35,711 nt of DNA from Psychromonas antarctica (GTDB lineage: Bacteria > Pseudomonadota > Gammaproteobacteria > Enterobacterales > Psychromonadaceae). The notes under the pieces were generated by a model. The model was not told where the DNA came from. It saw only the letters and a program-made list of their open reading frames with translations, and did not search any database. Position numbers and translations under genes: made by a program. Location: contig NZ_JAHNZV010000024.1 in the NCBI RefSeq assembly GCF_022267535.1, positions 1 through 35,711 on the forward strand, in the 5' to 3' direction. Within the stretch, counting starts at the first letter, position 1, and each line of letters opens with the position of its first letter. Of the stretch, positions 4,250 to 21,557 are shown in pieces.

Positions 4250-4343
4250 AACAACATATTTTGTTAACAAAATCTGAGCTATAGTAGTAAATATTAAAGA
4301 GTCGGTATAGATCACATCTAAGATCGCCTTTCATAAATAAACT
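4250..4343 (+). promoter_or_regulatory. Shared-architecture promoter R1, ahead of the chemoreceptor
   Basis: Three parts are visible. The 19-bp box AACAACATATTTTGTTAAC lies at 4250-4268. A CRP-like 16-mer GTCGGTATAGATCACA lies at 4301-4316 (11/16 to TGTGATCTAGATCACA, right half perfect). A -10-like TAAACT lies at 4338-4343 within ATAAATAAACT. CRP centre to hexamer is 29.5 bp, which puts CRP at about -41.5 if transcription starts near 4350 (class II). The box centre would be near -92. The same layout recurs at 6665, 14935 and 21463. In R1 the box also extends to the palindrome TTTTGTTAACAAAA, and an inverted repeat TAAATAAA/TTTATTTA surrounds the start region. Confidence 0.75.
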
Positions 4344-4474
4344 CTAGATCCATTTATTTAATCAACACCGTGATCTATGTACAAAAAAATTATGATACTG
4401 AACGCATCCAAGTTTCGGCTGCACTATTCTTTATCAGAGATAATTCACTAAATACCACCCATAGGATCTGCTTG

Positions 4475-6382
4475 ATGAAATTTTCAACCCTCTCAATTCG
4501 CTCTAAGCTAGTAATTGCCATGTTAATGGCTGTTATTATTTCGACCAGCATCGTTGGATTTGTAGGCCATTCAAAAGCCAAGGAACTTCTGATCTCGCGA
4601 CTACAACAGTCGGATTTACCCAATCTACTACAACGTGTCCGTAATGCCGTCGATGGCAATATTTCGGAAATGAAAGCCCTGACCAAAGCGATTGCCACCA
4701 ACCCTTTTCTTCTCGATGGACTTAACTCTGATTTAAGCCCCGAAAATGAAGCGAAGATGATTAACATGCTCAGTAAAATTGCTCAAGATAACCACCTCAG
4801 CAATGCCTCTTTTGCAGATAGAGAAAGCGCGCGTTATTGGAATCAGGATGGATTTTTGCGTGTTCTTCAGGATGATGACCGAGATGGATGGTTTTTTGCG
4901 TTCAAAAATAGCGGCCAAGCAGAGTCAGCAAGCACTTATGGCTACCCCAATGGCGACGTAGATGTTTTTATTAACTACCAAGAGGTTGATGGCAGAGGCG
5001 TTTCCGGTTTATCAAAATCATTTAATGATATGGTCGATTACTTAAACAGTTTTAAAATTGAACAGACCGGCTTTGTTTATCTTGTTGATAATTCAGGTCT
5101 GGTGAAAATACATAAAGACAAAGAAAAAAGTGAGAAAATAACACTTGCAGATATTTACGGCGATATTGATATTCAAACTTTATTATCTAAAAAAGGATTC
5201 GCATTTCAAGAAACAACGGATCTGGTTGTGGCAAGCAGTTATATCCCCAGCCTAGGTTGGTATGTGATCGCGGAAGTGCCTAAAGCAGAACTTTATATGG
5301 GTCTTAACGAGTCGCGAAATCATATGGCTATGTGGTTCGCTATTGTGGTTATTATATTTCTCTTTATCAGCATCTTTTTAGCAAAAAGTTTGACTAAACC
5401 TATCAATCATTTGGCCGATTTATTCAAAGAGCTAGGTGAAGGAGAGGGAGATCTTAGTTACCGACTCAATGAAACTAGCGGCGAAGAAGTTGCTAATTTA
5501 GCGCGCGGCTTTAATACCTTTATCAATAAAATCCATTCTGTCGTGAATGATGTTTCTACCACCTCTCGGGAGGTCCGCGAGGCATCACTGAAAGTTTCTC
5601 AAGATGCACAACAGTCAAGTTTAGATGCACAAGAACAACGTGATATAGCTACACAAGTGGCAACAGCTATCAGTGAAATGGGCGCGACCATCGCTGAAAT
5701 TGCGACTAATGCCTCGCAGGCAGCCGATGCTACAAATGAAGCCACTCGACAAGCTAAGAGTGCGCAATCAGTGGTAAAAGTGTCAACGGAAAACATTCTC
5801 CAGATGGCGCAGAGCATGGAATCAGTTTCACACACCATCGAATCTTTAGCCAATAAAAGCGATACCATTAGCAGCGTGCTCGACGTTATTCGTGGCATTT
5901 CAGAGCAAACCAATTTACTTGCATTGAACGCCGCCATTGAAGCGGCGCGAGCGGGCGAGCAAGGACGAGGCTTTGCCGTAGTCGCCGATGAGGTGCGCAA
6001 CTTGGCGAAACGCACCAGCGAATCAACCGATGAAATTAATCAGATGATAAACCAGTTACAAGCAGAATCTAAGCGTGCGGTTGATGGCGTAAGAGAAAGC
6101 AAAAACACTGCCGAGATGGGAGTGACCGATGCGAATAAAACCAACCAAGCACTCGATGAAATAGTTGCAAATATTCAACAAATTTCTGATTTAAATACGC
6201 AGGTTGCCACTGCTACTGAGGAACAGGCTACAGTCGTAGGGGAAATAAATATTCATGTACATGCCATTAGTGACAGCACTGAAAGCAGTGCAGAAACTGC
6301 AACGAGTATAGCCTCATCCAGTGAGTCTCTGACTACAATGGCGATGCGCCTAGATAGCTTAGTGAAACGATTTAAACTATAA
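4475..6382 (+). CDS. Methyl-accepting chemotaxis protein with Cache-type sensor
   Basis: A 635-residue transmembrane chemoreceptor that would pass ligand binding in the periplasm to CheA/CheW. It has a first membrane segment at about 11-31, a periplasmic domain at about 32-282 with Cache-like features ([52 protein letters not shown]), a second membrane segment at about 283-305, a HAMP linker, and a long coiled-coil signalling domain. The conserved hairpin tip is near 470-513 ([20 protein letters not shown] and [18 protein letters not shown]). The start is set at 4475, where AGGA sits 8 bases upstream; the frame is open from 4370 but that part looks untranslated. It ends LVKRFKL, with no CheR-tethering pentapeptide. 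The promoter matches those of the nucleoside genes, so a nucleoside, nucleotide or pentose ligand is a reasonable inference; the ligand is not readable from sequence. Confidence 0.93.
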
Positions 6383-6400
6383 AAAACCTACGCACGTCGT

Positions 6401-6433
6401 AAACAGCCGACCACTCTTTGTTGTCGGCTGTTT
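6401..6433 (+). terminator. Intrinsic terminator of the chemoreceptor gene
   Basis: Perfect 11-bp stem AAACAGCCGAC (6401-6411) and GTCGGCTGTTT (6423-6433) with an 11-base loop, running into TTTTAT. It begins 18 bp after the stop codon. Confidence 0.8.
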
Positions 6434-6664
6434 TATATCCCCATGACACTCAACACGCTTCATCAGGACTCTGCTCAGAGAACAGAATAAGGCGTAATAT
6501 GCGGGAACTAACAGCCTTAATTCAGGTGCCAGTGGTTAGTCCATTGCAATCAACAAAAACAAGCCGATTAAAGCAGTTATCGACAACGCTAGCGCAACCA
6601 TTTTACAACGCATCTTATTTTCAACTCAACGCTTATTTCTTGCTTATAATAACACCAGACCACA

Positions 6665-6758
6665 AACAACAGATTTTGTTATCGAAATAAAAAAGAAGCG
6701 AACAAATATAGTTCTGTAGCTATAGATCACACTTTACATGTTATTTAATAAATACACT
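6665..6758 (+). promoter_or_regulatory. Shared-architecture promoter R4, ahead of talB-nupC-deo
   Basis: The box AACAACAGATTTTGTTATC lies at 6665-6683 (two differences from the other copies). A CRP-like 16-mer GTAGCTATAGATCACA lies at 6716-6731 (11/16, right half perfect), and a -10-like TACACT at 6753-6758 within ATAAATACACT. Spacings equal those of R1: the 11-base string TATAGATCACA starts 56 bp after the box start in both. The predicted start near 6765 leaves a leader of about 196 nt before talB. The 6434-6960 gap shows no gene otherwise; a 90-codon frame at 6418-6690 begins inside the terminator and overlaps this box. Confidence 0.72.
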
Positions 6759-6960
6759 TCTTTACATAAACAGGGCATCGGCAAAGTAAGCAAATTAAGA
6801 TCTCTTTAATAGCGAGTTTGAACATCAACTTACTTTTAGCACTGCTTTTTATAAGATAAAAGTTTTCAAATAGGTAGCTAAGTTACCTTTAAAAAAATTT
6901 AAAATCGGTGATAACTTATCACTTGCAGCCCCCTACATATTTTATTAGAAGGTTAATTTC

Positions 6961-7911
6961 ATGGCGAGTAAATTAGATCAATTACGAAAGCTCACAACAG
7001 TGGTTGCAGATACAGGTGATATTGAGGAGATACAAAAATATCAACCTGAGGATGCGACAACCAACCCATCACTTATTCTAAAGGCAGCCCAACTGACGGG
7101 TTATGCGCCATTAATAAACGAAGCAATTGCTTATGCAAAAGCGCAAAGCAGTTCAGTACAACAACAAGTGCAAGATACCTGTGACAGTTTAGCGGTGAAT
7201 ATCGGTAAAACAATATTACAAAGTGTACCGGGTCGCATTTCAACTGAAGTAGATGCCCGCCTCTCGTATGATACACAAGCGAGTGTTATCAAAGCGCGCC
7301 AACTAATCAAAATGTACAATGATGCGGGTATTAACAATGACCGCATTTTAATTAAATTAGCCGCTACTTGGCAAGGCATTCGCGCTGCTGAAATATTGGA
7401 GAAAGAGGGCATAAATTGTAATTTGACCCTACTATTTTCTTTTGCTCAGGCACAGGCCTGCGCTGAAGCAGGCGTATTCCTTATTTCACCTTTTGTCGGC
7501 CGTATTATGGATTGGCACAAAAAGAATGAGGGCCGTGATTTTACACCAGAGTCAGATCCAGGCGTTAAATCTGTGGCAAATATTTATCGCTATTACAAAG
7601 CGCACGCTTATAAAACCGTCGTGATGGGTGCAAGTTTTAGAAATACAGGTGAGATATTGGCCTTGGCCGGATGTGACAGATTGACTATCAGCCCGCAATT
7701 ATTACAAGAACTTGAAGATCAACAGGGCGATGTGCACGCAGCACTCACCGCAACGACTAAAATAGAAACAGCACCCACCGCGTTAAACGAATCACAATTT
7801 TTATGGGCGCACAATCAAGACCCGATGGCGGTAGAAAAACTAGCCGAAGGGATCCGTAACTTCGCTATCGACCAAGACAAATTAGAAGAAATGATAAAAC
7901 AACGCCTTTAA
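6961..7911 (+). CDS. talB: Transaldolase
   Basis: A 316-residue cytoplasmic enzyme of the non-oxidative pentose phosphate pathway, moving a dihydroxyacetone unit from sedoheptulose-7-phosphate to glyceraldehyde-3-phosphate. Hallmarks are [32 protein letters not shown], the Schiff-base lysine in [16 protein letters not shown] (about residue 131), [18 protein letters not shown] and FISPFVGRI-type residues ([12 protein letters not shown]). Length is normal for the TalB subfamily. It starts at an ATG after AGAAGG. Placed directly upstream of nupC-deoCBDA, it would help drain ribose-5-phosphate from nucleoside breakdown; this coupling is inferred from position. A hairpin (AGCCAAT/ATTGGCT, 7931-7951) without a T-run follows, so read-through into nupC is plausible. 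Confidence 0.96.
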
Positions 7912-8027
7912 CTGTTTTTTAAAGAGATAAAGCCAATAAGCAAGATTGGCTTGTACAAAAAGCAATAAAAATGGCTAATAAAAACAGTTTTATTGAGCCT
8001 AACACATACATTAAATGGAGATTTAAG

Positions 8028-9302
8028 ATGCAAATTATTATGGGTTTAGTAGGGATAATCTCATTGATTATTATCGCGGTACTCTTTTCGAGTAATCGTA
8101 AAGCGATTAATCTGCGCACCGTTGGGGGGGCTTTTGCACTACAAGCTATTATACCCGCAATTGTTATTTTCACAGATTCAGGTGCAAGCGTATTGGGCAG
8201 CATCTCATCAGCCGTACAAACCGTCATTAATAGCGCCAATGCGGGTATTAGCTTTCTATTTGGTGGCCTCGTTTCCAACCAAATGTTTGAAGTATTCGGC
8301 GGTGGCGGTTTTATCTTCGCCTTTAGAGTATTGCCTATTATTATCTTCTTCGCGTCACTCATGGCTGTCCTTTATTATATGGGCATTATGCAGTTTATTA
8401 TCAGAATATTTGGTGGTGCACTGCAAAAAGCACTGGGCACCAGTCGCACGGAATCAATGTCAGCGGCGGCCAACGTTTTTGTCGGTCAAACAGAAGCTCC
8501 CCTCGTAGTTAAACCCTTTATCCGTTCAATGACACGTTCTGAGCTTTTTGCCGTCATGGCGGGGGGTCTTGCGTCGGTTGCGGGTTCAGTGTTGGCCGGT
8601 TATGCGTCGTTAGGTGTGAGTCTTGAGTACCTGATTGCAGCATCTTTCATGGCTGCACCGGGCGGTCTATTGATGGCCAAGCTGTTAGAGCCAGAAACAG
8701 AGTCTCCGAAAGATGAAATGGAACAGTTAACAGAGCAAGATATCGCTGAAAATGCAGCAGCTAAACCCGTCAATGTCATTGACGCAGCCGCTTCCGGTGC
8801 ATCCGATGGTCTTCACTTAGCATTAAATATCGGCGGCATGTTAATCGCGTTTATCGCCCTGATTGCATTAATTAATGCCATGTTAGGCGCTGCAGGCGGA
8901 TTATTTGGTGTAGATGCATTAACACTACAAGTGATCTTAGGTTACCTGTTCGCTCCCATCGCTTTTCTAATTGGTGTGCCATGGTCTGAAGCGATGCAAG
9001 TCGGTAGTTTACTTGGTCAAAAATTAGTCGTGAATGAATTTGTTGCTTATATCGATTTTATGTCGATCAAAGATACATTGAGCATGAACTCACAAGTGAT
9101 CGTGACTGTCGCCTTATGTGGCTTTGCGAACTTATCTTCAATGGCAATTTTACTCGGCGGACTAGGCGTTCTAGCACCATCACGTCGCCCTGATATTGCG
9201 CGCATGGGATTGAAAGCGGTACTTGCAGGTACCCTTTCTAACTTTATGAGTGCGTGTTTAGTGGGTATTTTCTTCGCCATGAGCGCAACGAGCCTTGCTT
9301 AA
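8028..9302 (+). CDS. nupC: NupC-type concentrative nucleoside transporter (CNT family)
   Basis: A 424-residue inner-membrane cation/nucleoside symporter. It opens MQIIMGLVGIISLIIIAVLF and shows many hydrophobic helices. The CNT signature SAAANVFVGQTEAPLVVKPF lies near residues 145-165 and VNEFVAYIDF near 335, the two re-entrant/substrate-binding regions of the family. The start is placed at the ATG at 8028 because GGAG lies 7 bases upstream; an in-frame ATG at 7971 would add 19 polar residues lacking in relatives. A charged loop (PETESPKDEMEQLTEQD) lies mid-protein. It stands ahead of deoC by 117 bp, consistent with nucleosides being imported for the phosphorylases that follow. Confidence 0.95.
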   Translation: MQIIMGLVGIISLIIIAVLFSSNRKAINLRTVGGAFALQAIIPAIVIFTDSGASVLGSISSAVQTVINSANAGISFLFGGLVSNQMFEVFGGGGFIFAFRVLPIIIFFASLMAVLYYMGIMQFIIRIFGGALQKALGTSRTESMSAAANVFVGQTEAPLVVKPFIRSMTRSELFAVMAGGLASVAGSVLAGYASLGVSLEYLIAASFMAAPGGLLMAKLLEPETESPKDEMEQLTEQDIAENAAAKPVNVIDAAASGASDGLHLALNIGGMLIAFIALIALINAMLGAAGGLFGVDALTLQVILGYLFAPIAFLIGVPWSEAMQVGSLLGQKLVVNEFVAYIDFMSIKDTLSMNSQVIVTVALCGFANLSSMAILLGGLGVLAPSRRPDIARMGLKAVLAGTLSNFMSACLVGIFFAMSATSLA

Positions 9303-9419
9303 TATCTGCATCAAGAGCCGCTAGCAATCACCATTGACTGCGGCTGATATATCCCCAAACGCTTGGAAACAGATTCTGAGCGGCTTGGACACCTTACTTA
9401 AGAAAAAAGGAGCTAAATA

Positions 9420-10193
9420 ATGAGTGATTTGCAAATCGCATCCCGTCAGGCTATCCAATTAATGGATCTGACCACACTAAACGATGATGACACGGATCAA
9501 AAAGTGCTTCAGTTATGTGCGGATGCACACACAGCGGCAGGTGATACTGCGGCTGTATGTATTTACCCTCGTTTTATTCCGATTGCTCGAAAAGCATTAG
9601 CTGCACAAAACTGCGCGCATATTAAAATTGCGACCGTAACAAATTTCCCACACGGTAATGATGACTTAGCGATAGCGCTAGCTGAAACCCGTGCTGCTGT
9701 TGCTTATGGCGCAGATGAAGTGGATGTGGTTTTTCCTTATCGCGCACTGATGGCCGGTAATAGCGAGATTGGTGCAACCATGATCAAAGCTTGCCGCGAA
9801 ATCTGTGGCGATAAAGTCACACTTAAAGTAATTATTGAATCTGGCGTATTACAAACGCCCGCGCTAATTAAACAAGCCAGTGAAATCTGTATTGCTGCAG
9901 GTGCCGATTTCATTAAAACCTCTACGGGTAAAGTTGCTGTAAATGCCACCTTAGAAGCCACTAAAGTCATGCTCGAAGCAATTAAAGCCTCTGGCCGTGA
10001 TGTCGGCTTTAAAGCGGCAGGCGGAGTTAAAGACGCTCAAGCTGCCAATGATTATATGCAACTCGCGCGTGATCTTATGGGAAATGATTGGGTCAATAGT
10101 GATCACTTCCGTTTTGGTGCATCTAGCTTATTAGTGAATCTATTATCTGAGTTGAAGTTAAGCACTAAAAAAGCACCAGCAGGAGCATATTAA
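9420..10193 (+). CDS. deoC: Deoxyribose-phosphate aldolase
   Basis: A 257-residue class I aldolase splitting 2-deoxyribose-5-phosphate into acetaldehyde and glyceraldehyde-3-phosphate, the last step of deoxynucleoside breakdown. The Schiff-base lysine is K166 in [11 protein letters not shown], the partner lysine K198 in [10 protein letters not shown], and the acid D102 in [10 protein letters not shown], matching K167, K201 and D102 of E. coli DeoC. GGAG precedes the ATG. The stop codon overlaps the deoB start (TAATG), so the two are translationally coupled. The 117-bp gap after nupC holds an imperfect GC-rich hairpin (AGCCGC/GCGGCT, about 9313-9342), possibly modulating relative expression. 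Confidence 0.97.
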
Positions 10194-11440
10194 TGAAACG
10201 TACTATTATCCTATTGTTAGATTCTTTTGGCGTAGGCGCTGCAAAGGATGCCGACAAGTTTATCGGTTCGCTTGCCGATGGCAGTGAATTTAATGATGTT
10301 GGCGCAAATACACTCGGACATATAGCACAACAGTGTGCGCAGGGACTGGCAGATATCGGTCGTAACGGTCCGCTTAGTATCCCAAATATGAATAAACTCG
10401 GCATGGGACGTGCTTGTTATGAAAGCTCGGGCTATTTTCCAGCGGGTCTTGATCAGTCCGTTGAGCCAGTCGCCGCTTACGGTTATGCCAAAGAACTTTC
10501 TACAGCCAAAGACACCTCTAGCGGACACTGGGAAATAACCGGCGTACCGGTGCTGTTTGATTGGGGATACTTTACCCAAAAACAAAATAGCTTTCCTCAG
10601 GAACTACTCGATGAGTTGGTGAAACGCGCAGATTTACCAGGTTATTTAGGTAACTGTCACTCCTCAGGCACCATCATTCTTGAAGAACTAGGCGAAGAAC
10701 ATATTAAAACTGGCAAACCTATATTTTATACTTCTGCCGACAGTGTTTTTCAAATTGCTTGCCATGAAGAAAGTTTCGGTTTAGAGCGCCTTTATCGGTT
10801 ATCTGAGCTCGCCCGAGAACTGGTCGATAAATACAATATCGGCCGCGTTATTGCTCGTCCTTTTAGTGGCACCAAAAGCAGTGATTTTGCACGCACAGGT
10901 AACCGCCATGATTATTCAGTGCTACCACCGGCCCCGACCCTGCTCGACCGCATGAAGGATTCTGGCGGAGAGGTGGTCAGTATCGGTAAAATTTCCGACA
11001 TTTTTGCAACCCAAGGGATCACCAAAGCGACCAAAGCAAATGGCATTGAAGCATTATTTAATGCCAGCTTAGCGGAGTTTAAAGAAGCGCGTGATCAAAC
11101 AATTATCTTCACCAACTTTGTCAATTTTGATGCTGATTTCGGACATCGTCGTAATGTCGCCGGTTATGCAGCCGCACTGGAATATTTTGATAAACGTCTA
11201 CCTGAAATGCTGGCGCTGCTCAGTGATGAAGATGTTTTAGTGATCACCGCTGATCATGGCTGCGATCCAACTTGGAAAGGCACAGACCATACTAGGGAAC
11301 ATATTCCGGTTATTTTTTATGGTAAATCGATTAAAGCCGGTTCCGTTGGCCTACGGCATACATTCGCCGATATAGGTCAGACAATTGCAGACCACCACAA
11401 TCTACCTGAGCTTGATTACGGTAAAAATATTTTTAACTAA
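10193..11440 (+). CDS. deoB: Phosphopentomutase
   Basis: A 415-residue alkaline-phosphatase-superfamily enzyme interconverting (deoxy)ribose-1-phosphate and -5-phosphate. Metal-binding blocks are present: [11 protein letters not shown] with D10 at the N-terminus, [33 protein letters not shown] and [20 protein letters not shown]. Length is typical (about 405-410 in E. coli). The ATG overlaps the deoC stop by one base, with AGGAG inside the deoC end. It sits between the phosphorylases, which supply pentose-1-phosphates, and DeoC. The gene order nupC-deoC-deoB-deoD-deoA differs from deoC-deoA-deoB-deoD of E. coli. Confidence 0.97.
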
Positions 11441-11465
11441 TTGATAGCTTTCGTTATAGCCCTCT

Positions 11466-11490
11466 TGCAAATGAGCCTGCCTCATTTGCA
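11466..11490 (+). other. Intercistronic hairpin between deoB and deoD
   Basis: Perfect 10-bp stem TGCAAATGAG / CTCATTTGCA around a 5-base loop. No T-run follows, so it is more likely an mRNA processing or 3'-end protection structure than an intrinsic terminator. Confidence 0.6.
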
Positions 11491-11558
11491 TTCACTCAGG
11501 TCGTCTAAAATACGCTTTTATCGACCTGATACTAAACAGTTAAATGGAGAATAAAAAA

Positions 11559-12269
11559 ATGGCAACACCTCATATTAATGCCGTAGACGGCGCTTTTGCA
11601 GAAACAGTTTTAATGCCTGGCGATCCGCTGCGTGCTAAATATATTGCAGAAAATTTCTTAGATGATGCGGTGCAAGTAACCGATGTACGTAATATGCTTG
11701 GTTTTACCGGCACCTATAAAGGCAAACGTGTTTCAGTCATGGGCAGTGGCATGGGCATCCCTTCTTGCTCTATTTACGCAACTGAATTGATCCGTGAATA
11801 TGGTGTAAAAAATATTATTCGTGTCGGCAGTTGTGGCGCGGTGAGTAATGATATCAAAGTACGTGATGTGATCATCGGTATGGGGGCATCGACCGATTCT
11901 AAAGTAAACCGCTCGCGTTTTTCCGGCCATGATTTTGCAGCAATTGCCAGTTATGAACTGTTAGAAAAAGCGGTTAATTCCGCCAAGGCTCACGGTATTA
12001 AAGCGCGTGTGGGTAATATCTTCTCTGCGGATCTGTTTTATACACCCGAGCCACAAATGTTCGACACATTAGAAAAATACAACATTCTCGGTGTCGAAAT
12101 GGAAGCCGCTGGTTTATATGGCGTTGCAGCAGAAGAAGGTGCAAATGCGCTGTGTATCCTGACCGTATCAGATCATATTCGCACGGGTGAAAAAACCTCT
12201 TCAGAGGAGCGTCAAAGTAGCTTCAATGAAATGTTGATCATTGCGCTCGATTCCGTTGTTGCGGAGTAA
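11559..12269 (+). CDS. deoD: Purine nucleoside phosphorylase, DeoD type
   Basis: A 236-residue enzyme phosphorolysing purine (deoxy)nucleosides to base plus (deoxy)ribose-1-phosphate; the bacterial DeoD form is a hexamer. Diagnostic blocks are [63 protein letters not shown] and SDHIRTGE with the catalytic Asp. The start is set at 11559: GGAG lies 9 bases upstream and the protein then opens MATPHINA like its relatives. The in-frame ATG at 11544 overlaps that ribosome-binding site. It is flanked by perfect hairpins on both sides. Confidence 0.96.
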
Positions 12270-12284
12270 TCAAACAATAGATAG

Positions 12285-12325: not shown

Positions 12326-12366
12326 ATCCCTTATTTAGCAAATTGAGTCTCTCTGGAGCCGCTAAA

Positions 12367-13704
12367 ATGATATTACTTCCACAAGAAATTATCCGTAATA
12401 AACGCGATGGCAAAGTGCTAAGCAAGCAAGAAATTGATTTTTTTATCAAAGGTATCACCAACAATTCAGTAACAGAAAGTCAAATTGCCGCATTTGCAAT
12501 GGCCATCTATTTCCAAGATATGAACATGGATGAACGTGTATTACTGGTTTCTGCGATGCGTGACTCCGGACAGGTTTTAGACTGGCAGTCACTTGAGTTA
12601 GATGGGCCAGTGGTAGACAAGCACTCAACCGGCGGCGTCGGTGATGTCACCTCTTTAATGTTAGGCCCAATGGTAGCTGCTTGTGGGGGGTATGTGCCAA
12701 TGATTTCAGGTCGTGGACTAGGGCACACCGGTGGAACGTTAGATAAATTAGACGCCATTCCTGGGTATAAAACCACTCCAGATAGTGCTGAGCATTTTCG
12801 TCAAATCGTTAAAAATGTCGGTGTTGCCATTATTGGCCAAACAGGTGATTTAGCCCCTGCTGATAAACGTTTTTATGCAACACGTGATATTACCGCTACC
12901 GTTGAATCCATTCCGCTGATCACCGCATCGATTCTATCGAAAAAGCTCGCTTCAGGGCTTGGATCCTTAGTCATGGACGTTAAAGCCGGTAGCGGCGCAT
13001 TTATGCCGACTTATGAGGCATCTGAAGAATTAGCAAAAAGTATTGTCGCGGTGGCCAATGGTGCTGGTTGCAAAACTACCGCTCTACTGACCAATATGAA
13101 TCAAGTACTGGCAAGCAGTGCAGGCAATGCACTTGAAGTACGTGAAGCAGTGCAATTTTTAACCGGCGAATACGTTAACCCACGTTTACATCAAGTTACC
13201 ATGGCATTATGTAGTGAGATGCTGGTATTAAGCGGTCTTGCAAAAGATGACGCCGAAGCGACAACAAAACTGCAAGCAGTGCTGGATAACGGTAAAGCGG
13301 CTGAAGTCTTTGCTAAAATGGTCAGTGCATTGGGCGGTCCTGCAGATTTTGTAGAAAATCATAATAAATATCTACCGAAGTCTGAAATCATACGCCCTGT
13401 TTATGCTCCTAATTCAGGCATAGTACAATCAATGGATACCCGTGCATTGGGTATGGCAGTGGTTAATATGGGGGGGGGCAGAATGAAATCATCTGATCCT
13501 ATCGATTATGCTGTTGGTCTTAATGGTTTTGTCTCTATTGGTGATCAGGTTAATTCACAACAACCGCTGGCCATGATCCATGCACGTAGCGAAGCGCAGT
13601 TCTTAGAGGCTGAACGGGCTATTCAACGCGCCATTATTTGTGGCGCAGATAAACCCGAGTCTGAAATACAAATTTACCGTCGTATACGGTTACAAGACAT
13701 ATGA
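12367..13704 (+). CDS. deoA: Thymidine phosphorylase
   Basis: A 445-residue enzyme of the pyrimidine nucleoside phosphorylase/AnPRT fold that converts thymidine and deoxyuridine to base plus deoxyribose-1-phosphate. Conserved blocks are [32 protein letters not shown] (phosphate binding), [54 protein letters not shown] and [15 protein letters not shown]. The start is chosen at 12367 with GGAG 8 bases upstream; the upstream in-frame ATG at 12343 precedes this site and adds eight non-conserved residues. It lies last among the Deo enzymes rather than after deoC. Confidence 0.96.
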
Positions 13705-13750: not shown

Positions 13751-14374
13751 ATGGAATTTGATTGGGTAGAGTGGTTTGGATATTTGGCGTCAATGGTCGT
13801 TTTGGTCTCATTGACGATGACTTCAATTATCAAATTAAGGGTGATCAATTTTATCGGGTGCCTGCTTTTTGCTTCTTTTGCTTACTTCATCGATTCTGTA
13901 CCCACTATATTTATGAATCTAAGCATTGCTTGCATTAATATTTATTATCTTTATCAGATTTACAATAGCAAAGAAGAGTTCAAAATAATTTCAGCGGAAA
14001 GTGATTCACAATATTTCGACCATTTTATTAGCGTTCATCAAGATGACATTGAAAAACAGATTGCCCTAGAGCAATTAAAAAAAGCCGATACAGCATTCTA
14101 TATGTTACGCGATAACAATATCGCCGGACTACTTGCAGGTCAAATAGAAGAAGATGGCGTTTTTACAATGATGCTGGATTACGTTACCCCAAGATATCGA
14201 GATTTTAAACTTGGAAATTATTATTACAATAGCCACCCAGAGTTTATTAAACAGAAAGGAATCAACACATTAAAGGCAATCGCTAGCGATCAAAAGCATT
14301 GCTTTTACCTTGAGAAAATGGGCTTTGTGAAACAATCACAAAGCGATCCTCACACCTACATAAAGAGACTATAA
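13751..14374 (+). CDS. Membrane-anchored protein with acyltransferase-like C-terminus, unknown function
   Basis: A 207-residue protein whose first 70 residues form about three membrane segments (roughly 8-26, 30-48, 50-69), recalling YgjV-like small membrane proteins. The remainder is soluble. Its pattern FTMMLDYVTPRYRDFKLGNY followed by YLEKMGFVK looks like the end of a GNAT acetyltransferase fold; this is a weak fold-level impression. AAGGGA precedes the ATG. It is 46 bp after deoA and one base ahead of cdd (TAA-G-ATG), so it is co-translated with cytidine deaminase inside the nucleoside operon. Related two-part proteins occur in marine bacteria, but I know of no assigned function. Confidence 0.7.
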   Translation: MEFDWVEWFGYLASMVVLVSLTMTSIIKLRVINFIGCLLFASFAYFIDSVPTIFMNLSIACINIYYLYQIYNSKEEFKIISAESDSQYFDHFISVHQDDIEKQIALEQLKKADTAFYMLRDNNIAGLLAGQIEEDGVFTMMLDYVTPRYRDFKLGNYYYNSHPEFIKQKGINTLKAIASDQKHCFYLEKMGFVKQSQSDPHTYIKRL

Positions 14375-14375
14375 G

Positions 14376-14777
14376 ATGAACTATTTCACAGAGCTTAATA
14401 CACTACTTGATATGTCCTATGCACCCTATTCCGGTTTTAATGTCGCGTCAATTGTGGTGACCAAAGATAATCAGGTTTATAAAGGCGTTAATGTTGAATC
14501 AGCCGCTTACCCAACGACCAATTGTGCGGAGCGTAATGCCCTGCAAACAGCGGTAACAGAAGGGATAAAAGTAGGTGATATCAAAGAGGTACATACACTC
14601 GGCCGTAATGCAGAGAAATTACTAGTAAAAGCTTATCCTTGCGGATCGTGCCGACAAGTCATTGCAGAGCAATCGGCCAATGATGCGATGGTTTACTGTT
14701 ATGCTTCCCAAACTGATGTCGAAACGTTCTCTATTGCCGAATTGCTACCACATGCTTTTTTAGGTGCTGAACTGTAA
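14376..14777 (+). CDS. cdd: Cytidine deaminase, short homotetrameric type
   Basis: A 133-residue zinc enzyme deaminating cytidine and deoxycytidine to uridine and deoxyuridine, feeding the Udp and DeoA phosphorylases. The zinc/catalytic motif is complete: C50-A-E52 in TNCAERNAL and C89/C92 in YPCGSCRQV; substrate contacts FNV and VNVESAAYPTT are also present. The length is that of the single-domain tetrameric class (B. subtilis and eukaryotes), not the roughly 294-residue two-domain dimer of E. coli. It starts one base after the upstream gene ends. A hairpin at 14791-14825 follows. Confidence 0.96.
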   Translation: MNYFTELNTLLDMSYAPYSGFNVASIVVTKDNQVYKGVNVESAAYPTTNCAERNALQTAVTEGIKVGDIKEVHTLGRNAEKLLVKAYPCGSCRQVIAEQSANDAMVYCYASQTDVETFSIAELLPHAFLGAEL

Positions 14778-14790
14778 CCTCTGACTTAGC

Positions 14791-14825
14791 GTCGCTATTT
14801 ATCTGCTACCAAAGTAAATAGCGAC
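14791..14825 (+). other. Hairpin at the end of the deo-cdd operon
   Basis: Perfect 11-bp stem GTCGCTATTTA (14791-14801) / TAAATAGCGAC (14815-14825) with a 13-base loop. No T-run, so it may protect a 3' end generated by Rho, or be a weak terminator. Confidence 0.5.
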
Positions 14826-14934
14826 TGCTCCCATCCATTTAAGCCTAGCGCCATCATTCCCTCAAACCATTTACCAAGCACCAACGTAAGAGATTTCCTC
14901 ACCTCTATTTTTTAGGGAAAAACATCAACTTGCA

Positions 14935-15029
14935 AACAACATATTTTGTTAACGGGTCAAAACATAAATCCAATAATGCCAGTTATAGCGATCCGGGTCG
15001 CATTTTATGGGCCACTGAATAAATAAACT
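14935..15029 (+). promoter_or_regulatory. Shared-architecture promoter R2, ahead of xapX-tkt-udp
   Basis: The box AACAACATATTTTGTTAAC lies at 14935-14953 and is identical to R1 and R3. A CRP-like 16-mer AGCGATCCGGGTCGCA lies at 14987-15002 (10/16, itself a near-palindrome). A -10-like TAAACT lies at 15024-15029 within ATAAATAAACT. CRP centre to hexamer is 29.5 bp and box centre to CRP centre 52 bp. The predicted start near 15036 would leave a short leader of about 26 nt before xapX. TCAAC also lies 5 bp upstream of the box, as in R3. Confidence 0.75.
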
Positions 15030-15061
15030 TATTGCCATTACTCCACTACCTAGGTATCAAG

Positions 15062-15229
15062 ATGCAACAAATTTTAATGGCATTATTCGCGGGGCTTATC
15101 GTTGGCCTGATTTTCTCGTTTTTAAAATTACCGCTACCCGCGCCGCCCGTTTTACCCGGTATTATGGGCATTGCTGGCGTCTATATGGGTGGACTTATCT
15201 TTCAGCAATATATCAGTAATTACCTATAA
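15062..15229 (+). CDS. xapX: XapX-domain small membrane protein
   Basis: A 55-residue hydrophobic protein with two membrane segments (about 1-19 and 30-48) separated by FLKLPLPAPPVLPGIMGIAG. The PAPP...G pattern is typical of the XapX (DUF1427) family, small inner-membrane proteins often encoded beside nucleoside genes; their function is not established. The ATG at 15062 is favoured over 15032 because the protein then opens MQQILMALFAGLIVG like relatives, with an AGG a few bases upstream. A perfect 9-bp hairpin (15214-15235) spans the stop codon. The position behind promoter R2 and ahead of tkt-udp fits a nucleoside-linked role. Confidence 0.75.
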   Translation: MQQILMALFAGLIVGLIFSFLKLPLPAPPVLPGIMGIAGVYMGGLIFQQYISNYL

Positions 15230-15308
15230 TTACTGGCTATTGTGAATACCAAATGTATTAACTTTGTGATCTTGTATTACACACAGAAAATGCATTAGAT
15301 CAATGCCT

Positions 15309-15343
15309 GAATTTTATGAATGATTGTTCTCTTCATAAAATTC
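15309..15343 (+). repeat. 12-bp perfect inverted repeat in the tkt leader
   Basis: GAATTTTATGAA (15309-15320) and TTCATAAAATTC (15332-15343) are perfect inverted copies separated by 11 bases, about 96 bp before the tkt start. The AT-rich stem has no T-run. It could be an operator or a leader hairpin. A partial CRP-like string (TGTGATCTTGTATTAC) lies about 40 bp upstream. Confidence 0.6.
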
Positions 15344-15438
15344 ACAACGCTGAGATAGTTCATTTAAAGCAGCAACACTGATCATTTATTTAATACGTTT
15401 GTTATATATAACTAACTTAACCTAATCAGGAGAAACAG

Positions 15439-17427
15439 ATGCCCTCTCATCAAGCGTTAGCGAATGCAATTCGTGCCCTTAGTATGGACGCTATTCAAAA
15501 ATCAAATTCAGGCCACCCTGGTGCACCAATGGGGATGGCGGATATCGCTGAAGTCCTTTGGCGTGATTTCTTAAAACATAGTCCAACTAACCCGCAATGG
15601 GCAGATCGCGATCGCTTTGTGCTATCCAACGGGCACGGCTCTATGTTGCTCTACTCTCTGCTACATTTAACGGGTTATGATTTGTCTATTGAGGATCTAA
15701 AATCATTCCGTCAGCTTCACTCTAAAACACCTGGCCACCCGGAATATGGATATACCCCCGGAGTTGAAACCACCACTGGCCCATTAGGTCAAGGTATTGC
15801 AAATGCAGTGGGGATGGCAATTGCTGAAAAATCATTAGCGGCACAGTTCAACCGTGCAGGGCACGATATTGTTGACCATCATACCTACACGTTCTTAGGC
15901 GATGGTTGCCTGATGGAAGGCATTTCCCATGAAGCCTGTTCACTCGCGGGCACCTTAGGTCTAGGCAAATTAATCGCCTTCTGGGATAACAACGGCATCT
16001 CGATTGATGGTGATGTTGATGGTTGGTTTACAGACAATACTCCAGAACGTTTTGCTGCTTACGGCTGGCAGGTTATTTCAGTTGATGGTCATAACAGCGC
16101 GGAGATTAAAACGGCTATTGAAGCTGCACAAGCAGAAACCACTAAACCAACAATGATTTGTTGTAAAACAATTATCGGTTTCGGTTCACCTGCGAAACAA
16201 GGTACACACGATTGTCACGGTGCTCCTTTAGGTGCAGATGAAATTATCGCGACACGTAAAGCATTAGGCTGGAACTACGGTGATTTTGAAATTCCAGAAG
16301 ATATCTATGCTCGTTGGAATAACGTTGATAAAGGCCAGCTTGTTGAAGCCTCTTGGGATGATAAATTTGCAGCTTATGCTGCTGCGTTCCCTGAATTAGC
16401 GGCAGAATACAAACGCCGTATTAATAACGAATTCCCCGCTGATTGGGAAGCCAAATCAACACAATACATTGCTGATTTACAAGCAAATTCTGCTAATATT
16501 GCCACACGTAAAGCATCACAAAACTGTATTGAAGCATTTAGTGCAATGTTGCCTGAACTGCTCGGTGGCTCTGCAGATTTAGCACCATCAAACCTAACCA
16601 TGTGGTCGGGTACAAAAGCAATTACGGCTAGCGATGCTTCAGGCAATTACTTACATTACGGCGTCCGTGAATTTGCTATGTCTGCGATTGTTAACGGAAT
16701 GGCATTACATAGAGGGTTTATTCCTTTTGGTGCAACCTTCCTGATGTTTGTGGAATATGCTCGTAACGGTTTACGTATGTCGGCATTAATGAAACAGCGT
16801 GCAATTCAAGTATTTACCCATGACTCAATTGGTCTGGGTGAAGATGGTCCCACTCACCAACCCGTTGAACAGATTGCGAGCCTACGTTTAACGCCGAATA
16901 TGAATATTTGGCGTCCATGTGACAGTGTCGAATCTGCTGTATCTTGGAAGTCAGCGATTGAACGTGTTGATGGTCCAACGTCACTTGTCTTTAGCCGCCA
17001 AAACTTACAACCACAACCGCGTGATGCACAGCAATTAAGTGATGTCGCTAAAGGAGGGTATGTCTTATTGGACAGCGCTACGCCAGCAGACATCATCTTG
17101 ATTGCAACGGGTTCTGAAGTACAACTTGCCGTTGAAGCGCACAAAGAGTTAACAGCACAAGGTAAAGCGGTACGTGTTGTTTCTCTTCCTTGTACCGATG
17201 TTTTTGAAACACAAAGCGCACAATACAAAGAATCTGTATTACCAGCATCGGTTGCTAAACGCATTGCTATTGAAGCGGGCATTGCTGATTACTGGTACAA
17301 ATATGTGGGCCTGAACGGTAAAGTTATTGGCATGACCACCTTTGGCGAGTCAGCACCTGCTGAGTTGCTGTTTGCAATGTTCGGTTTCACCGTTGAGAAT
17401 ATAGTCAATACAGCAAATAGCTTATAA
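15439..17427 (+). CDS. tkt: Transketolase
   Basis: A 662-residue thiamine-diphosphate enzyme transferring two-carbon ketol units in the pentose phosphate pathway. Visible features are the N-terminal [23 protein letters not shown], the ThDP/metal motif [13 protein letters not shown] ending near [10 protein letters not shown], the central [19 protein letters not shown] region, and [21 protein letters not shown]. Length matches TktA/TktB. GGAG precedes the ATG. It is followed after 33 bp by udp, an unusual pairing that fits conversion of ribose-5-phosphate from nucleosides into glycolytic intermediates together with talB. Whether this is the only transketolase of the genome cannot be judged. Confidence 0.97.
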
Positions 17428-17460
17428 ACAAATAATTAACATTAATTAAAGGAGTTTCTT

Positions 17461-18219
17461 ATGTCAGATGTATTTCATTTAGGGTTAACCAAAAAGATGT
17501 TAGACGGTGCAAAATTAGCAATTGTACCGGGCGACCCACAACGCGTTAAAAAAATAGCTGAACTGATGGATGGCGCCACATTCTTGGCAAGTCACCGCGA
17601 ATATACTAGCTACTTAGCTTATATTGATACCAAAGCGGTGGTTATTTGTTCAACAGGTATCGGCGGCCCGTCAACGTCTATCGCGGTAGAAGAGCTAGCG
17701 CAACTCGGTGTTACGACCTTCCTGCGCGTTGGCACAACAGGGGCGATTCAGCCACAAGTGAATGTTGGTGATGTGATTGTTACACAGGCATCTGTTCGCC
17801 TTGACGGCGCGAGTCTTCATTTTGCGCCAATGGAATTTCCAGCAGTTGCAGACTTTGAATGTACCACGGCCATGGTTGCCGCCTGTCGTGATGCCGGTAT
17901 TGAGCCGCATATCGGCATTACCGCCTCTTCAGATACTTTCTATCCGGGTCAAGAACGTTACGATACGGTCTCCGGTCGTATCACCCGTCGATTTAAAGGA
18001 TCAATGCAAGAGTGGCAAGATCTTGGCGTGCTTAACTATGAGATGGAATCATCAACGCTATTTACCATGTGTGCTTCTCAAGGTTGGCGCGCTGCCTGTG
18101 TTGCAGGTGTGATTGTAAACCGCACCCAGCAGGAGATCCCAGATGAAGCGACCATGAAGAAAACCGAAGTGAGCGCGATATCAATCGTCGTTGCAGCGGC
18201 AAAAAAACTGCTCGCCTAA
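17461..18219 (+). CDS. udp: Uridine phosphorylase
   Basis: A 252-residue enzyme cleaving uridine (and some deoxyuridine/thymidine) with phosphate to uracil and ribose-1-phosphate. Diagnostic features are [59 protein letters not shown], the Udp-specific [20 protein letters not shown] (pyrimidine recognition and Glu-Met-Glu) and [13 protein letters not shown]. Length matches E. coli Udp (253). AGGAG precedes the ATG. It is last in the xapX-tkt-udp unit and is followed by a strong hairpin terminator. It complements Cdd upstream by consuming the uridine that Cdd forms. Confidence 0.97.
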
Positions 18220-18230
18220 AAGCATCTTAT

Positions 18231-18255
18231 AACCCACTATTCATATAGTGGGTTT
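18231..18255 (+). terminator. Intrinsic terminator after udp
   Basis: Perfect 10-bp stem AACCCACTAT / ATAGTGGGTT with a TCAT loop, then a short T-run (TTTG), starting 12 bp after the stop codon. Confidence 0.75.
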
Positions 18256-18431
18256 GCATTTCCCCTCCTCGAAATCGACATTAGTTAACGACTAAACGCG
18301 AGTCACCAACAACCCCGATTAAACTAGCGAATCCCGCTAAAGGTTATATTTACTGTATTGCGATTGTGCATGTGGAGTGGTAATTTATCTAGTCGTCATT
18401 ACTTTTTGACGCTTCAGAAGAAGGAATTAGC

Positions 18432-19130
18432 ATGCAAGCTCAATTTAATGTTCAAATTGGTTCTTTTCGTAAAATCAATAAAATCCCCAATGCTTGGTCA
18501 AATAAAGATTATCTTCAATTAATGGCTATTATGGGGCTAGATGATGGTTTAGAAGGAATGGAAGCCGCTGAACTTAGAGAAATGTGCATGATGTCTCTAA
18601 ATGATTTAAAGGCAAATGAAGCCGCAAAAATCGTCTTAACGCATTTATTCAGTGAATTAACTGAAGGTAAAATTGATCAATTGAGTAATGATATGGTCGG
18701 CGACAGAATGTGGGAAGAGTATTCTGATTGCTTACTTCATGAACGTTTTTTTAGTGCTTATGGATTATTGAGAGAAGCATTTAATGGTGTCTTTGCCGAG
18801 CCGACTGGTGTTGAGTTTATGGTCGATATTACGGCAGCAGACGCACAAGATTTGGCTATTTTTGATGAATCATTACATGCATCGATGGTACGTCTTTTAG
18901 CATCAGGAACCTCTCCTGATGCTTTATTACATCGATTATATGAAGATCAAATTACGGGTACGCAATTTCCACAAGCGGCAGGAATCTTGTGGCAGCTAGA
19001 ATCACTAGCCAATGAAGGTTTAAGTCGTCAATTTAAGATGATTAGTTCAGATTTTTGGTTTGGAAAATTAGCCGATGTTGAGCAGTTTGAAGCGTCATCT
19101 CATGCAGATGAGGCAGATCAAAGTGAATAA
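18432..19130 (+). CDS. Conserved hypothetical protein, all-helical, unrecognised
   Basis: A 232-residue soluble acidic protein with no signal peptide, membrane segment or catalytic motif I can identify. Its composition (many Leu, Glu, Met, Ala; segments such as MGLDDGLEGMEAAELREMCM and LASGTSPDALLHRLYEDQI) suggests a helical fold, and the last 15 residues are a charged, probably disordered tail. AAGGA lies 7-8 bases before the ATG and the codon use looks like the neighbours, supporting a real gene. It is transcribed alone between the udp terminator and a convergent terminator shared with mgtE. No function is proposed. Confidence 0.7.
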   Translation: MQAQFNVQIGSFRKINKIPNAWSNKDYLQLMAIMGLDDGLEGMEAAELREMCMMSLNDLKANEAAKIVLTHLFSELTEGKIDQLSNDMVGDRMWEEYSDCLLHERFFSAYGLLREAFNGVFAEPTGVEFMVDITAADAQDLAIFDESLHASMVRLLASGTSPDALLHRLYEDQITGTQFPQAAGILWQLESLANEGLSRQFKMISSDFWFGKLADVEQFEASSHADEADQSE

Positions 19131-19164
19131 TTAAGATCATCAATTTGCATTTCTCTAGGCAACA

Positions 19165-19196
19165 AAAAACCAGCTGTAATAATTCAACTGGTTTTT
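19165..19196. terminator. Bidirectional terminator between 18432-19130 and mgtE
   Basis: Stem AAAAACCAGCTG (19165-19176) / CAACTGGTTTTT (19185-19196), with one G-T wobble and an 8-base loop. It has A-runs on one side and T-runs on the other, so it can end transcripts from both directions; the flanking genes converge here. Confidence 0.75.
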
Positions 19197-19303
19197 ATAC
19201 CCAAACCACCTTATTCAGCACTTGGGGATAGAGCATTTTAGCAATGCCAAATCAATGATGACGAATGCAGTTAGGTAACCATAGAACGCTATAACATTTG
19301 CAA

Positions 19304-20659
19304 TTAAATCAAAATATAGGTCGCTGTCCCCAAAAATATTAAAAAACCCACGGCATCAGTAATGGTGGTCAAGATAACTCCGCCAGCAATTGCAGGGTCG
19401 ACTCCAAGTTTTTTCAATACAATAGGAATAACGGCCCCGGAAAGAGTGCCGGTCAAACTAACAACAAAAAGTGCGAGTGCAAAAACACTGCCTAACTTCC
19501 AATCGTCATACCAAAAAAGGGTAATTAAAAAAACCACCGCAGCCCATAATAGTCCGTTAATAAAAGACACTTTTAATTCATGAATGGTCAGCGAAATAAT
19601 ATTAGCACTACTCACCAGATCGCGGGCGATGCCTCGCGTCACAACCGTAAGTGTTTGACTTCCGGTGACGCCGCCCATACTTGCCACTACAGGCATCAGT
19701 ACCGCTAGTGCAACGAGCTGTTCGATTGAAGATTCAAAAAAGCCGATTACCCAGGCCGCGACAAATGCGGTAATTAAATTAGTGCCTAACCAAATTGCCC
19801 TATTTAAAGAAATATGCGCGACAGGGGCAAACATGTCCAACTCTTTGTTAAGACCAGCAGAAGCCAATAAACCCTGCTCTGAATTGTGCTTCAAAAAATC
19901 GATAACATCATCGACGGTTATCCGTCCCAAAAGACAATTATTTTTGTCCACTACAGGTGCCGATATTAAATCGTGATCTTCAAAAATTTGCGCAACCTGA
20001 CTAGCAGATTGTAGCGAATCAATTAATGGCACATCGGTTCTCATCACATCGCCAACCGACAAAGCGTTATCTAAAGAGACCAAGTCACTGAGATGTAAGG
20101 TCCCTTGTACCTGGTTTTTTCTGTCGACAACGACTAATTGGTCAAGCTGCTCAGGCAACATGCCTTGTTTTTTTCTCAACTGACACAAATATCGATACAC
20201 AGCTTTAAGAGTAACGTCCTTTCTAACCGCCGTCGCATCAACATCCATTAACCCGCCAGCGGTATTATCAGGAAAAGAGGCAACGGTCTGATAGCGCTCT
20301 TTTCGCTGACTATCCATGGCCGCCACCATGGCGCTCACAACTGATAACGGTAAATCTGCATCGATATCCGCCAACTCATCCATTTGCAGAGTAGACAGGC
20401 ATTTAAGGAGATCAGCTTCGCTGGTTTTTTTGATTAAAAATAGGCGCAGCTCACGATGTACCGCGAGTAATACTTCGCCCTTATATTTAACTGGGATCAA
20501 GCTCCAAAAATCGTCGCGATATTTATTCGGTAACGATTCAATTAATCGACCCAATTCAGCAGGATGGCATTGTTCAATCGAAAGCAATAGTTCTTGGGCG
20601 TTTTTTTGCTCCAAAGAATGCGTTAATTTGCTCACTAGTTTGCTAAAATTATTGCTCAT
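19304..20659 (-). CDS. mgtE: MgtE-family magnesium transporter
   Basis: A 451-residue Mg2+ channel/transporter with the usual layout: an N-terminal helical MgtE_N domain (about 1-130), two CBS domains (about 135-258, including ASFPDNTAGGLMD and VGDVMRTDVPLID) that sense cytosolic Mg2+, and five membrane helices (about 285-451). The pore region shows LMPVVASMGGVTGSQTLTVVTRGIA and GVDPAIAGGVILTTITDAVGF, close to the conserved family signatures. The ATG at 20659 follows AGGTCCT. It stands alone and is convergent with the preceding gene; there is no evident tie to the nucleoside genes. No Mg2+ riboswitch was recognised upstream by eye. Confidence 0.94.
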   Translation of the reverse strand: MSNNFSKLVSKLTHSLEQKNAQELLLSIEQCHPAELGRLIESLPNKYRDDFWSLIPVKYKGEVLLAVHRELRLFLIKKTSEADLLKCLSTLQMDELADIDADLPLSVVSAMVAAMDSQRKERYQTVASFPDNTAGGLMDVDATAVRKDVTLKAVYRYLCQLRKKQGMLPEQLDQLVVVDRKNQVQGTLHLSDLVSLDNALSVGDVMRTDVPLIDSLQSASQVAQIFEDHDLISAPVVDKNNCLLGRITVDDVIDFLKHNSEQGLLASAGLNKELDMFAPVAHISLNRAIWLGTNLITAFVAAWVIGFFESSIEQLVALAVLMPVVASMGGVTGSQTLTVVTRGIARDLVSSANIISLTIHELKVSFINGLLWAAVVFLITLFWYDDWKLGSVFALALFVVSLTGTLSGAVIPIVLKKLGVDPAIAGGVILTTITDAVGFLIFLGTATYILI

Positions 20660-21462
20660 AGGACCTACTTGTAATGGTGCGTTTGGCTATTTATCGGAAA
20701 GTTAATTAATAACGAGTGCTTAGCAAGTCGCTACGCAGTAACTTAGTCTGAATCCTTTATTGCATCAAGCCTTATTAGCGAAATAGTTCATTGGCTAATA
20801 TCCCCATATGCTTAATTTTATTATATACCCAAATCACCTCAAGAGGCTCCCACATGGCAAGACGATAAACAGCGCGCTTCGTTATTATAAGCATTTGATT
20901 TGTAACAATTAAACCATAAACTTTCTGCCTGCAATCTCATCATTTATTGGCTTACTGATTGCTGTATCTTGAGATAGTTTGAGTATTAGAGAAGTTTTCT
21001 GCTTTAGCCCCCTACTCTTGATATAGGGGAGAATCTGAGGTTAAAGCACTATTATTAACGCATGATTTAACCAGTAGGCTGTAACTATACAAAATTATTT
21101 TGTTGTTCGGTAAACGAATTAAGGCAATTAATGACTAAGTTAAGCATATTTCAGAGCACTTTTAGGTACTAGATCGGATTTTTTTGATCGGGCAAGTAGC
21201 CGATAAAGTCAGTAATGGTGTTTAGCAATGCATAAGGATTGAACCAATGGCGCTGCATCAACAGCAAGTAAAGAAAACTAAAAAATCAAGAAACCTACCC
21301 TTTAAAAACAATCACATACCTATTCAAAATATACTAGATATGATATAGAAATATGCCCATTCCTTCTTTGAATAAACCTTTCTAGCAATCAAGATGGACA
21401 GAAAAGATGTTATTTAGCCCGCACAAATCTCATTGGCAGATAAAATAGAAAATCAACGAGTA
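20660..21462. other. Long intergenic region between mgtE and the ushA promoter
   Basis: About 800 bp without a convincing gene on either strand. It holds the presumed mgtE promoter, one copy of a 16-bp repeat TATACCCAAATCACCT (20824-20839), and a GC-containing hairpin around 21009-21029 (CCCCTA/TAGGGG). A small RNA is possible but nothing specific supports one. Confidence 0.4.
20824..20839. repeat. TATACCCAAAYCACCT dispersed motif (second copy)
   Basis: TATACCCAAATCACCT here matches TATACCCAAACCACCT at 19196-19211 at 15 of 16 positions; the copies lie on either side of mgtE in the same orientation. Flanking sequence is not conserved. It may be part of a dispersed intergenic repeat of marine gammaproteobacteria, a resemblance recalled but not checked. 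Confidence 0.4.
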
Positions 21463-21557
21463 AACAACATATTTTGTTAACAAGTAAAAATAGACATTAC
21501 TAAATAACTATTCTAGTGACTCAGTTCTCACTTTATTGTTTGCTTAATAAATAAACT
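21463..21557 (+). promoter_or_regulatory. Shared-architecture promoter R3, ahead of the nuclease cluster
   Basis: The box AACAACATATTTTGTTAAC lies at 21463-21481. A CRP-like 16-mer AGTGACTCAGTTCTCA lies at 21515-21530 (10/16, with GTGA and TC-CA halves), and a -10-like TAAACT at 21552-21557 within ATAAATAAACT. Box centre to CRP centre is 52 bp and CRP centre to hexamer 29.5 bp, identical to R2. TCAAC sits 5 bp upstream of the box. The predicted start near 21564 leaves a leader of about 80 nt. Confidence 0.75.

Follow-up and report, generated by a model that had tools for sequence, protein, structure and literature searches.

Which protein recognises a 19-bp box that recurs at four promoters of Psychromonas antarctica? 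The promoters lie in a 35,711-nucleotide stretch of its genome (contig NZ_JAHNZV010000024.1, positions 1 to 35,711), here called the window. An initial annotation, made from these letters alone, had described each of them as a composite of the box, a site resembling that of the cAMP receptor protein (CRP) and a -10 hexamer at fixed spacing, a unit referred to below as the module, and had named no regulator. The candidate encoded beside the first box, the 452-aa protein P0001, is likely an addition to that description. It is predicted here, with a probability of roughly three in four, that the box is bound by the P0001 family, which would act with cAMP-CRP on promoters of nucleic-acid-scavenging genes. 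Observed directly were the composite promoter, the conservation of its geometry, the genes that it serves and the joint occurrence of module and family gene. The candidate gene and the promoter elements are as follows.

2875..4233, minus strand: candidate box-binding regulator P0001 (452 aa), divergent from box 1
4250..4268, plus strand: box 1, between the gene of the 452-aa protein and a chemoreceptor gene; module E 8.6e-11
4301..4316, plus strand: CRP-like 16-mer 1, 6/10 consensus bases
4338..4343, plus strand: -10 hexamer 1, TAAACT, at fixed distance to the CRP-like site
6665..6683, plus strand: box 2, upstream of tal-nupC-deo; module E 2.6e-11
6716..6731, plus strand: CRP-like 16-mer 2, 6/10 consensus bases
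6753..6758, plus strand: -10 hexamer 2, TACACT, at fixed distance to the CRP-like site
14935..14953, plus strand: box 3, upstream of a small DUF1427-like open reading frame (ORF), tkt and udp; module E 2.0e-15
14987..15002, plus strand: CRP-like 16-mer 3, 7/10 consensus bases
15024..15029, plus strand: -10 hexamer 3, TAAACT, at fixed distance to the CRP-like site
21463..21481, plus strand: box 4, upstream of nucleotidase, porin-like and nuclease genes; module E 4.3e-15
21515..21530, plus strand: CRP-like 16-mer 4, 8/10 consensus bases
21552..21557, plus strand: -10 hexamer 4, TAAACT, at fixed distance to the CRP-like site

As had been reported, the boxes at 4250, 14935 and 21463 are identical and that at 6665 differs by two mismatches. 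A window scan allowing up to three mismatches gave five matches against 0.02 expected in shuffles, the fifth being the reverse strand of the 21463 site; chance repetition of the box was rejected on this expectation and on the fixed spacing. The centre of the CRP-like 16-mer lies exactly 29.5 bp before TAAACT or TACACT in 4/4 promoters, and the box-to-CRP spacing given earlier (51-52 bp) agrees with ours when counted from the centre of the inner 16-mer. Measured from the centre of the 19-mer box, the CRP-like centre follows at 49.5, 49.5, 50.5 and 50.5 bp in promoters 1 to 4. The first two CRP-like 16-mers, with six matching bases each (seven and eight in the others), are weak in their left halves, and 2.2% of all window 16-mers score at least 6 against the consensus. 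A class II CRP geometry with a putative CRP site at -41.5 is supported at the four promoters, and the earlier suggestion of a class II promoter with a second protein near -92 gains support from the geometry conserved here and in relatives.

The DNA between the sites is unconserved, as had been claimed: the 30 nt downstream of the box are 27-50% identical between copies, and therefore the box is not a copied repeat. That the boxes are left over from a repeat or mobile element and have no regulatory role, an idea favoured by three copies identical over 19 bp, is hardly credible, for the spacers are unconserved yet the distances are kept, and in other families, too, the arrangement stands before genes of these kinds.

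In the whole P. antarctica genome, ten sequences match the box with up to three mismatches (seven forward, three reverse), and a backwards control pattern matches seven times (four and three), nearly as frequently, so that three-mismatch box matches alone mean little. Besides the four window sites, the full module occurs at a single place, C228:20747 (E 8.6e-5); the next-best match has an E of 0.027. Box-like sequences without partners in this genome are three-mismatch matches near the control frequency, which leaves the proposed composite promoter standing.

The composite promoter was found across the genus Psychromonas and, within the order, in three further families, and recurs upstream of nucleoside operons with the same spacing in related species and other families; it is evidently old. 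Among named genomes, a search turned up 18 loci, every one from Psychromonas, and many of 40 fetched Psychromonas loci have the same arrangement, although a few boxes there are without it (e.g., in locus L085). Families designated f10, f12 and f21 are presumably Alteromonas-like, Moritella-like and Vibrionaceae, respectively, an unproven guess. Alignment of 26 promoters drawn from four families gave CAACA-N-ATTT-N-GTTA as the box consensus and showed ten invariant columns in the module as a whole. The box had been called a near-perfect palindrome over its inner 16 bp; the AAC...GTT arms are indeed symmetric, but the rest of the cross-family consensus is asymmetric and less palindromic than in Psychromonas.

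Spacing was then counted over many loci. In loci fetched before modelling (84 boxes), 23/24 strong CRP-like sites (at least 8/10) stand at 49.5 or 50.5 bp, as do 41 of the 61 weaker ones (at least 7/10), with 20 elsewhere; outside Psychromonas (20 loci), 8/8 strong sites stand at 50.5 bp. Over all loci, some of which were fetched with the module model itself, 87 boxes with no more than one mismatch each are followed by 25 CRP-like sites of at least 8 matches, 24 of them at 49.5 or 50.5 bp. The corresponding binomial p of 1e-33 is not a count of independent events because related genomes give near-copies. CRP-like sites in other genomes reach 9/10 consensus bases.

The start codon of P0001 lies 16 bp from box 1, and the occurrence of its family was compared with that of the module in an order sample of 295 genomes (module threshold E<=1e-5; the family and module scans had a same-sized sample with the same genome labels). 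The family was found in 54/295 genomes (one, G286, doubtful), and the module in 48/54 of these vs 0/241 of the others. The 26 training sites of the module model came from 18 genomes and had all been picked near family genes or by box; without these 18 genomes the counts are 30/36 and 0/241. In all 48 genomes the module is within 1.63 kb of a family gene, in 47 within 1 kb and in 27 within 200 bp. In a class-wide sample, the family matched in 9/369 genomes, two of them in the same order (P. antarctica included), and several of these matches are short zinc-ribbon/helix-turn-helix (HTH) ORFs only.

Within Psychromonas, the family gene is present in 20/24 genomes and the module in 20/20 of these. 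The three gene-less Psychromonas of the order sample have no module at threshold (E 0.03, 0.03, none), and in the fourth (G012, 51% complete) no box was found at two or fewer mismatches. All four retain tal-nupC-deoC-deoB-deoD, and no box at that stringency was found in the ten intergenic stretches scanned in them. This looks like a joint loss of the regulator and its site. Gene neighbourhoods vary (deoD in f21, nupC-deo in f10, tal-nupC-deo in Psychromonas), and the protein and the box remain together. Outside Psychromonas, 20/20 fetched homologues (from 20/34 positive genomes) stand beside nucleoside or nucleotidase genes, as do 23/24 of those fetched from Psychromonas; the remaining one, on a cut contig, is accompanied by a chemoreceptor only.

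P0001 itself matched no Pfam family at E 0.001. Members of its family share two groups of conserved cysteines, a helical stretch resembling an HTH and a C-terminal domain of greater length; in P0001 these were read as a Cys-rich N-terminus, an IS1-like zinc ribbon with HTH, and a C-terminal domain without fold assignment. The NCBIfam models IS1_IS1595_Zn and transpos_IS1 were each matched by 18/24 members (limit 0.1; best E 1e-10 and 2.2e-9, respectively). When seven proteins were scanned singly, the IS1 matches stopped at the HTH and all were below curated cut-offs. Profile comparison gave an E of 3.9e-7 for a fused IS1-like protein and of 8.1e-7 for an InsA-like ORF, whose InsB-like partner ORF was not matched; a profile search of solved structures returned mainly eukaryotic zinc-finger entries. 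A transposase-type DNA-binding head is supported for the family by these sequence comparisons. Two AlphaFold models from Psychromonas-only alignments were poor (pLDDT 54.5 and 55.7) and gave nothing in Foldseek at E 0.001 or better. The best Foldseek entries for the C-terminal model include Endonuclease V and Piwi (E 0.098 or worse), which are RNase H-like; given the poor models and no Foldseek match at E 0.001, a DDE/RNase H reading of this part was not confirmed.

Family copy number is 1-5 matches per genome, some being fragments of one gene. In G005 (C1:3538424-3538880), two extra copies of the last ~66 residues follow just 3' of the full gene, and contig C90 of P. antarctica (L305:270-2033) encodes a 588-aa distant relative of P0001 with an IS1-like zinc/HTH match.

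Several observations count against the P0001 family as the reader of the box. The Fisher p for co-occurrence of family and module (5e-49) overstates independence because four families hold all 48 genomes. Six positive genomes fall below the module threshold (G099, G112, G177, G198, G254 and the doubtful G286), of which three show a weaker match next to the gene: G112 (E 3.0e-4), G177 (E 3.0e-5) and G254 (E 7.8e-5). Among 59 family genes, six are on contigs that carry no module, and a seventh is more than 100 kb away from any. Nucleotidase linkage is seen in four of the seven (G015:C47, G200:C18, G156:C23 and G131:C1:497343), so that the nucleotidase-linked branch is mostly without module; a fifth gene of this kind, G168:C29, has one. 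The 241 negatives are not proven empty either, because the family search missed a truncated copy in G180, the closest negative (module E 1.4e-5). The promoters of G002, which lacks P0001, were searched for this box alone, and the CRP-like sites are weak at two of the window promoters. Finally, the recognisable DNA-binding signature covers only about one-fifth of the family length, and the gene adjoining the box could encode an enzyme instead of a regulator. In G180 itself (L220:6206-7919), a box and a CRP site precede deoD, with the truncated family copy behind.

The short signature and the unassigned C-terminal domain also favour a different explanation, in which the box is read by an unlinked regulator from some other family, the 452-aa protein being a conserved neighbour that has a different role in nucleic-acid use. 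Such a regulator would need the same presence and absence as the 452-aa family in the sampled genomes, and gene neighbours change between families while the protein and the box stay paired; we consider this explanation unlikely, and binding by the P0001 family is retained as the preferred prediction.

The genes downstream of the four promoters are listed below; the names deoB, deoD and porin are partly context-based.

4370..6382, plus strand: chemoreceptor, with MCP signal and HAMP domains (dCache below cut-off); the real start is perhaps further in
6961..7911, plus strand: transaldolase family (tal)
7971..9302, plus strand: NupC-type nucleoside transporter
9420..10193, plus strand: DeoC family aldolase
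10193..11440, plus strand: Metalloenzyme-superfamily protein, taken as DeoB because of its operon position (name inferred)
11544..12269, plus strand: phosphorylase-superfamily protein, taken as DeoD because of its operon position (name inferred)
12343..13704, plus strand: protein with pyrimidine nucleoside phosphorylase domains, read as DeoA (name inferred)
13751..14374, plus strand: 207-aa protein, no Pfam match, retained in the operon in several genomes
14376..14777, plus strand: cytidine deaminase family (cdd)
15062..15229, plus strand: 55-aa hydrophobic ORF, DUF1427 below its cut-off (E 2e-5)
15439..17427, plus strand: transketolase (tkt)
17461..18219, plus strand: uridine phosphorylase (udp)
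21644..23293, plus strand: 5'-nucleotidase family
23363..24523, plus strand: porin-like protein, read from sequence; no Pfam or NCBIfam match
24564..27674, plus strand: ExeM/NucH family extracellular nuclease
27774..29312, plus strand: Endonuclease I family nuclease

Promoter 1 precedes the chemoreceptor gene and promoter 2 the run tal-nupC-deoC-deoB-deoD-deoA-unknown-cdd. Promoter 3 precedes the 55-aa DUF1427-like ORF and tkt-udp, and promoter 4 the genes of the 5'-nucleotidase, the porin-like protein, the ExeM/NucH nuclease and Endonuclease I. ORFs were also sought behind 16 sites, and ten were scanned. The ten comprise two endonucleases (one non-specific, the other an Endonuclease I with a Lamin-tail domain), two 5'-nucleotidases, three chemoreceptors (that of L078 not being the first ORF), an iron alcohol dehydrogenase and two GGDEF proteins, one of them from P. 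antarctica contig C228. As read from domains and context, the targets are nucleases, nucleotidases, nucleoside transport and catabolism genes, and chemoreceptors. They are mostly nucleic-acid genes, and the nucleic-acid regulon proposed in the initial annotation is supported.

Some further observations concern these targets. The GGDEF gene of contig C228 (L224:6749-8276) stands behind the fifth module of P. antarctica, and a box-GGDEF pair also occurs in G016 (L020). The DUF1427-like ORF at 15062-15229 is the first gene after box 3, and similar hydrophobic ORFs, judged by eye, follow the module in f10/f12 loci L137, L138, L139, L140, L141, L142 and L144. A second box, AACAACATATTATGTTAAC, occurs after deoA at L065:439, L066:18087, L069:884, L070:11380 and L073:11856, with differing downstream DNA; in L065 the ORF after it starts like the adenosine-deaminase-type ORF of L147. 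Strong modules at L075:5871, L081:5841 and L088:7328 lie upstream of genes resembling the atp operon. L075 and L088 have no long ORF for ~600 bp past the module, and a small RNA or a short gene is possible there; with a small RNA in mind, no terminator-like site or Rfam RNA was found at 5850-6500 of L075.

Genes of this kind are known targets of CytR and CRP, and a CytR or other LacI-family regulator binding the box, as in E. coli deoP2, has to be weighed. In Vibrio cholerae, CytR represses udp, cdd, ompK and one nupC, and deoC is reported to be outside its control, according to the accessible part of that study (PMC4581735). CytR sites have been described, in the portion of the source available, as weak-consensus half-operator pairs lying mostly between two CRP sites, and Vibrionales deoC cassettes scored too low for alignment there (PMC3454398). 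The present box, in contrast, is strongly conserved with one CRP site. The CytR arrangement of a site between two CRP sites was not seen, the box being upstream of a single CRP-like site, although no search was made for a further CRP site on the upstream side of the box. The regulator families examined as rivals in the genomes were LacI and Crp. Of nine LacI matches in P. antarctica, eight were scanned (an 89-aa frame was left out, and L302 was scanned without its head); none reached the CytR equivalog cut-off of 436 bits, the best scoring 259. G004 (79% complete) has the module, and its single LacI match is interrupted by a stop. A LacI-family reader of the box is therefore quite improbable, and CytR apparently does not account for these promoters.

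A Crp-family local regulator like Shewanella DeoR* was considered as well. A Crp-family nucleoside regulator has been named in Shewanella by comparative genomics, as far as the accessible text goes (PMC3223726). G018, however, has the module and only two Crp-family HTH matches over cut-off (248- and 221-aa frames), read from their lengths as FNR and CRP, with two more below cut-off. Binding of the box by such a protein is very improbable, a shade more so than by a LacI-family one.

Under the preferred prediction, P0001 would bind the box near -92, probably as a dimer in view of the AAC...GTT dyad, and would act jointly with cAMP-CRP at -41.5 on class II promoters. The box and the CRP site are ~4.8 helical turns apart, so both proteins would sit on nearly the same face of the DNA. 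The P. antarctica genome has Crp-family genes, one of which, of 215 aa, was read as CRP. Genes for sensing, digestion, import and breakdown of extracellular nucleic acids would be expressed whenever active CRP coincides with a nucleoside-type signal, which we guess to be a nucleoside or deoxyribose phosphate. Activation would be the somewhat likelier direction of control, with CytR-like gating or repression also plausible. P0001 may repress its own gene, as suggested by box 1 lying so close to its start codon and by the modules within 200 bp of the gene in 27/48 genomes. More tentatively, and at rather less than even odds, the 452-aa family may represent a new class of transcription factor, a domesticated IS1-like transposase whose formerly catalytic domain is now a nucleoside-type sensor, reading a fixed site some five helical turns ahead of that of CRP and running a regulon by which marine bacteria find, digest and eat DNA.

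Other features of the window are a Tai4-Tae4 type VI secretion immunity/effector pair (33845-34689), a ParE-type toxin gene (33112-33399) and two adjoining group II intron D1-D4 matches to different Rfam families (35046-35455). A phage-integrase family ORF (11-574) lies near one window end, and a Y2-type putative transposase (32250-32837) towards the other.

We take the boxed deoD of f21, as a guess only, to be VCA0053 of V. cholerae. A promoter reporter of VCA0053 (purine nucleoside phosphorylase) was repressed on over-expression of the small protein VcdP, in the part of the report at hand (PMC8672173). The open-access literature, to the extent that its texts were accessible, holds no description that we found of this box or protein, and the available parts of two regulon surveys name no regulator for Psychromonas nucleoside genes; within these sources the regulon is undescribed, as had been supposed. 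The P0001 family thus offers a specific candidate regulator for the use of extracellular DNA and nucleosides by marine bacteria, chemoreceptors included. If the prediction is true, a transposase-type DNA-binding protein serves as a conserved transcription factor, and the spacing of its site to CRP has been held within a base pair across families.

Among known systems, E. coli deoP2 has CRP at -41.5 and a second site near -93. The promoters described here resemble deoP2 and other CytR-CRP promoters in these positions and in serving nucleoside catabolism genes, and differ in that the upstream site is a specific conserved box and that none of the eight LacI proteins scanned is a CytR equivalog. 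The Shewanella DeoR* regulon likewise comprises nucleoside genes of a marine gammaproteobacterial genus; its regulator is reported, in the accessible text (PMC3223726), to be of the Crp family, whereas the P0001 family shows no such domain. With IS1/IS1595-type transposases the P0001 family has in common the zinc ribbon and HTH head. Unlike these transposases, its C-terminal part is without a match to the one InsB-like partner tried, and its gene is fixed beside metabolic operons and present in few copies per genome.

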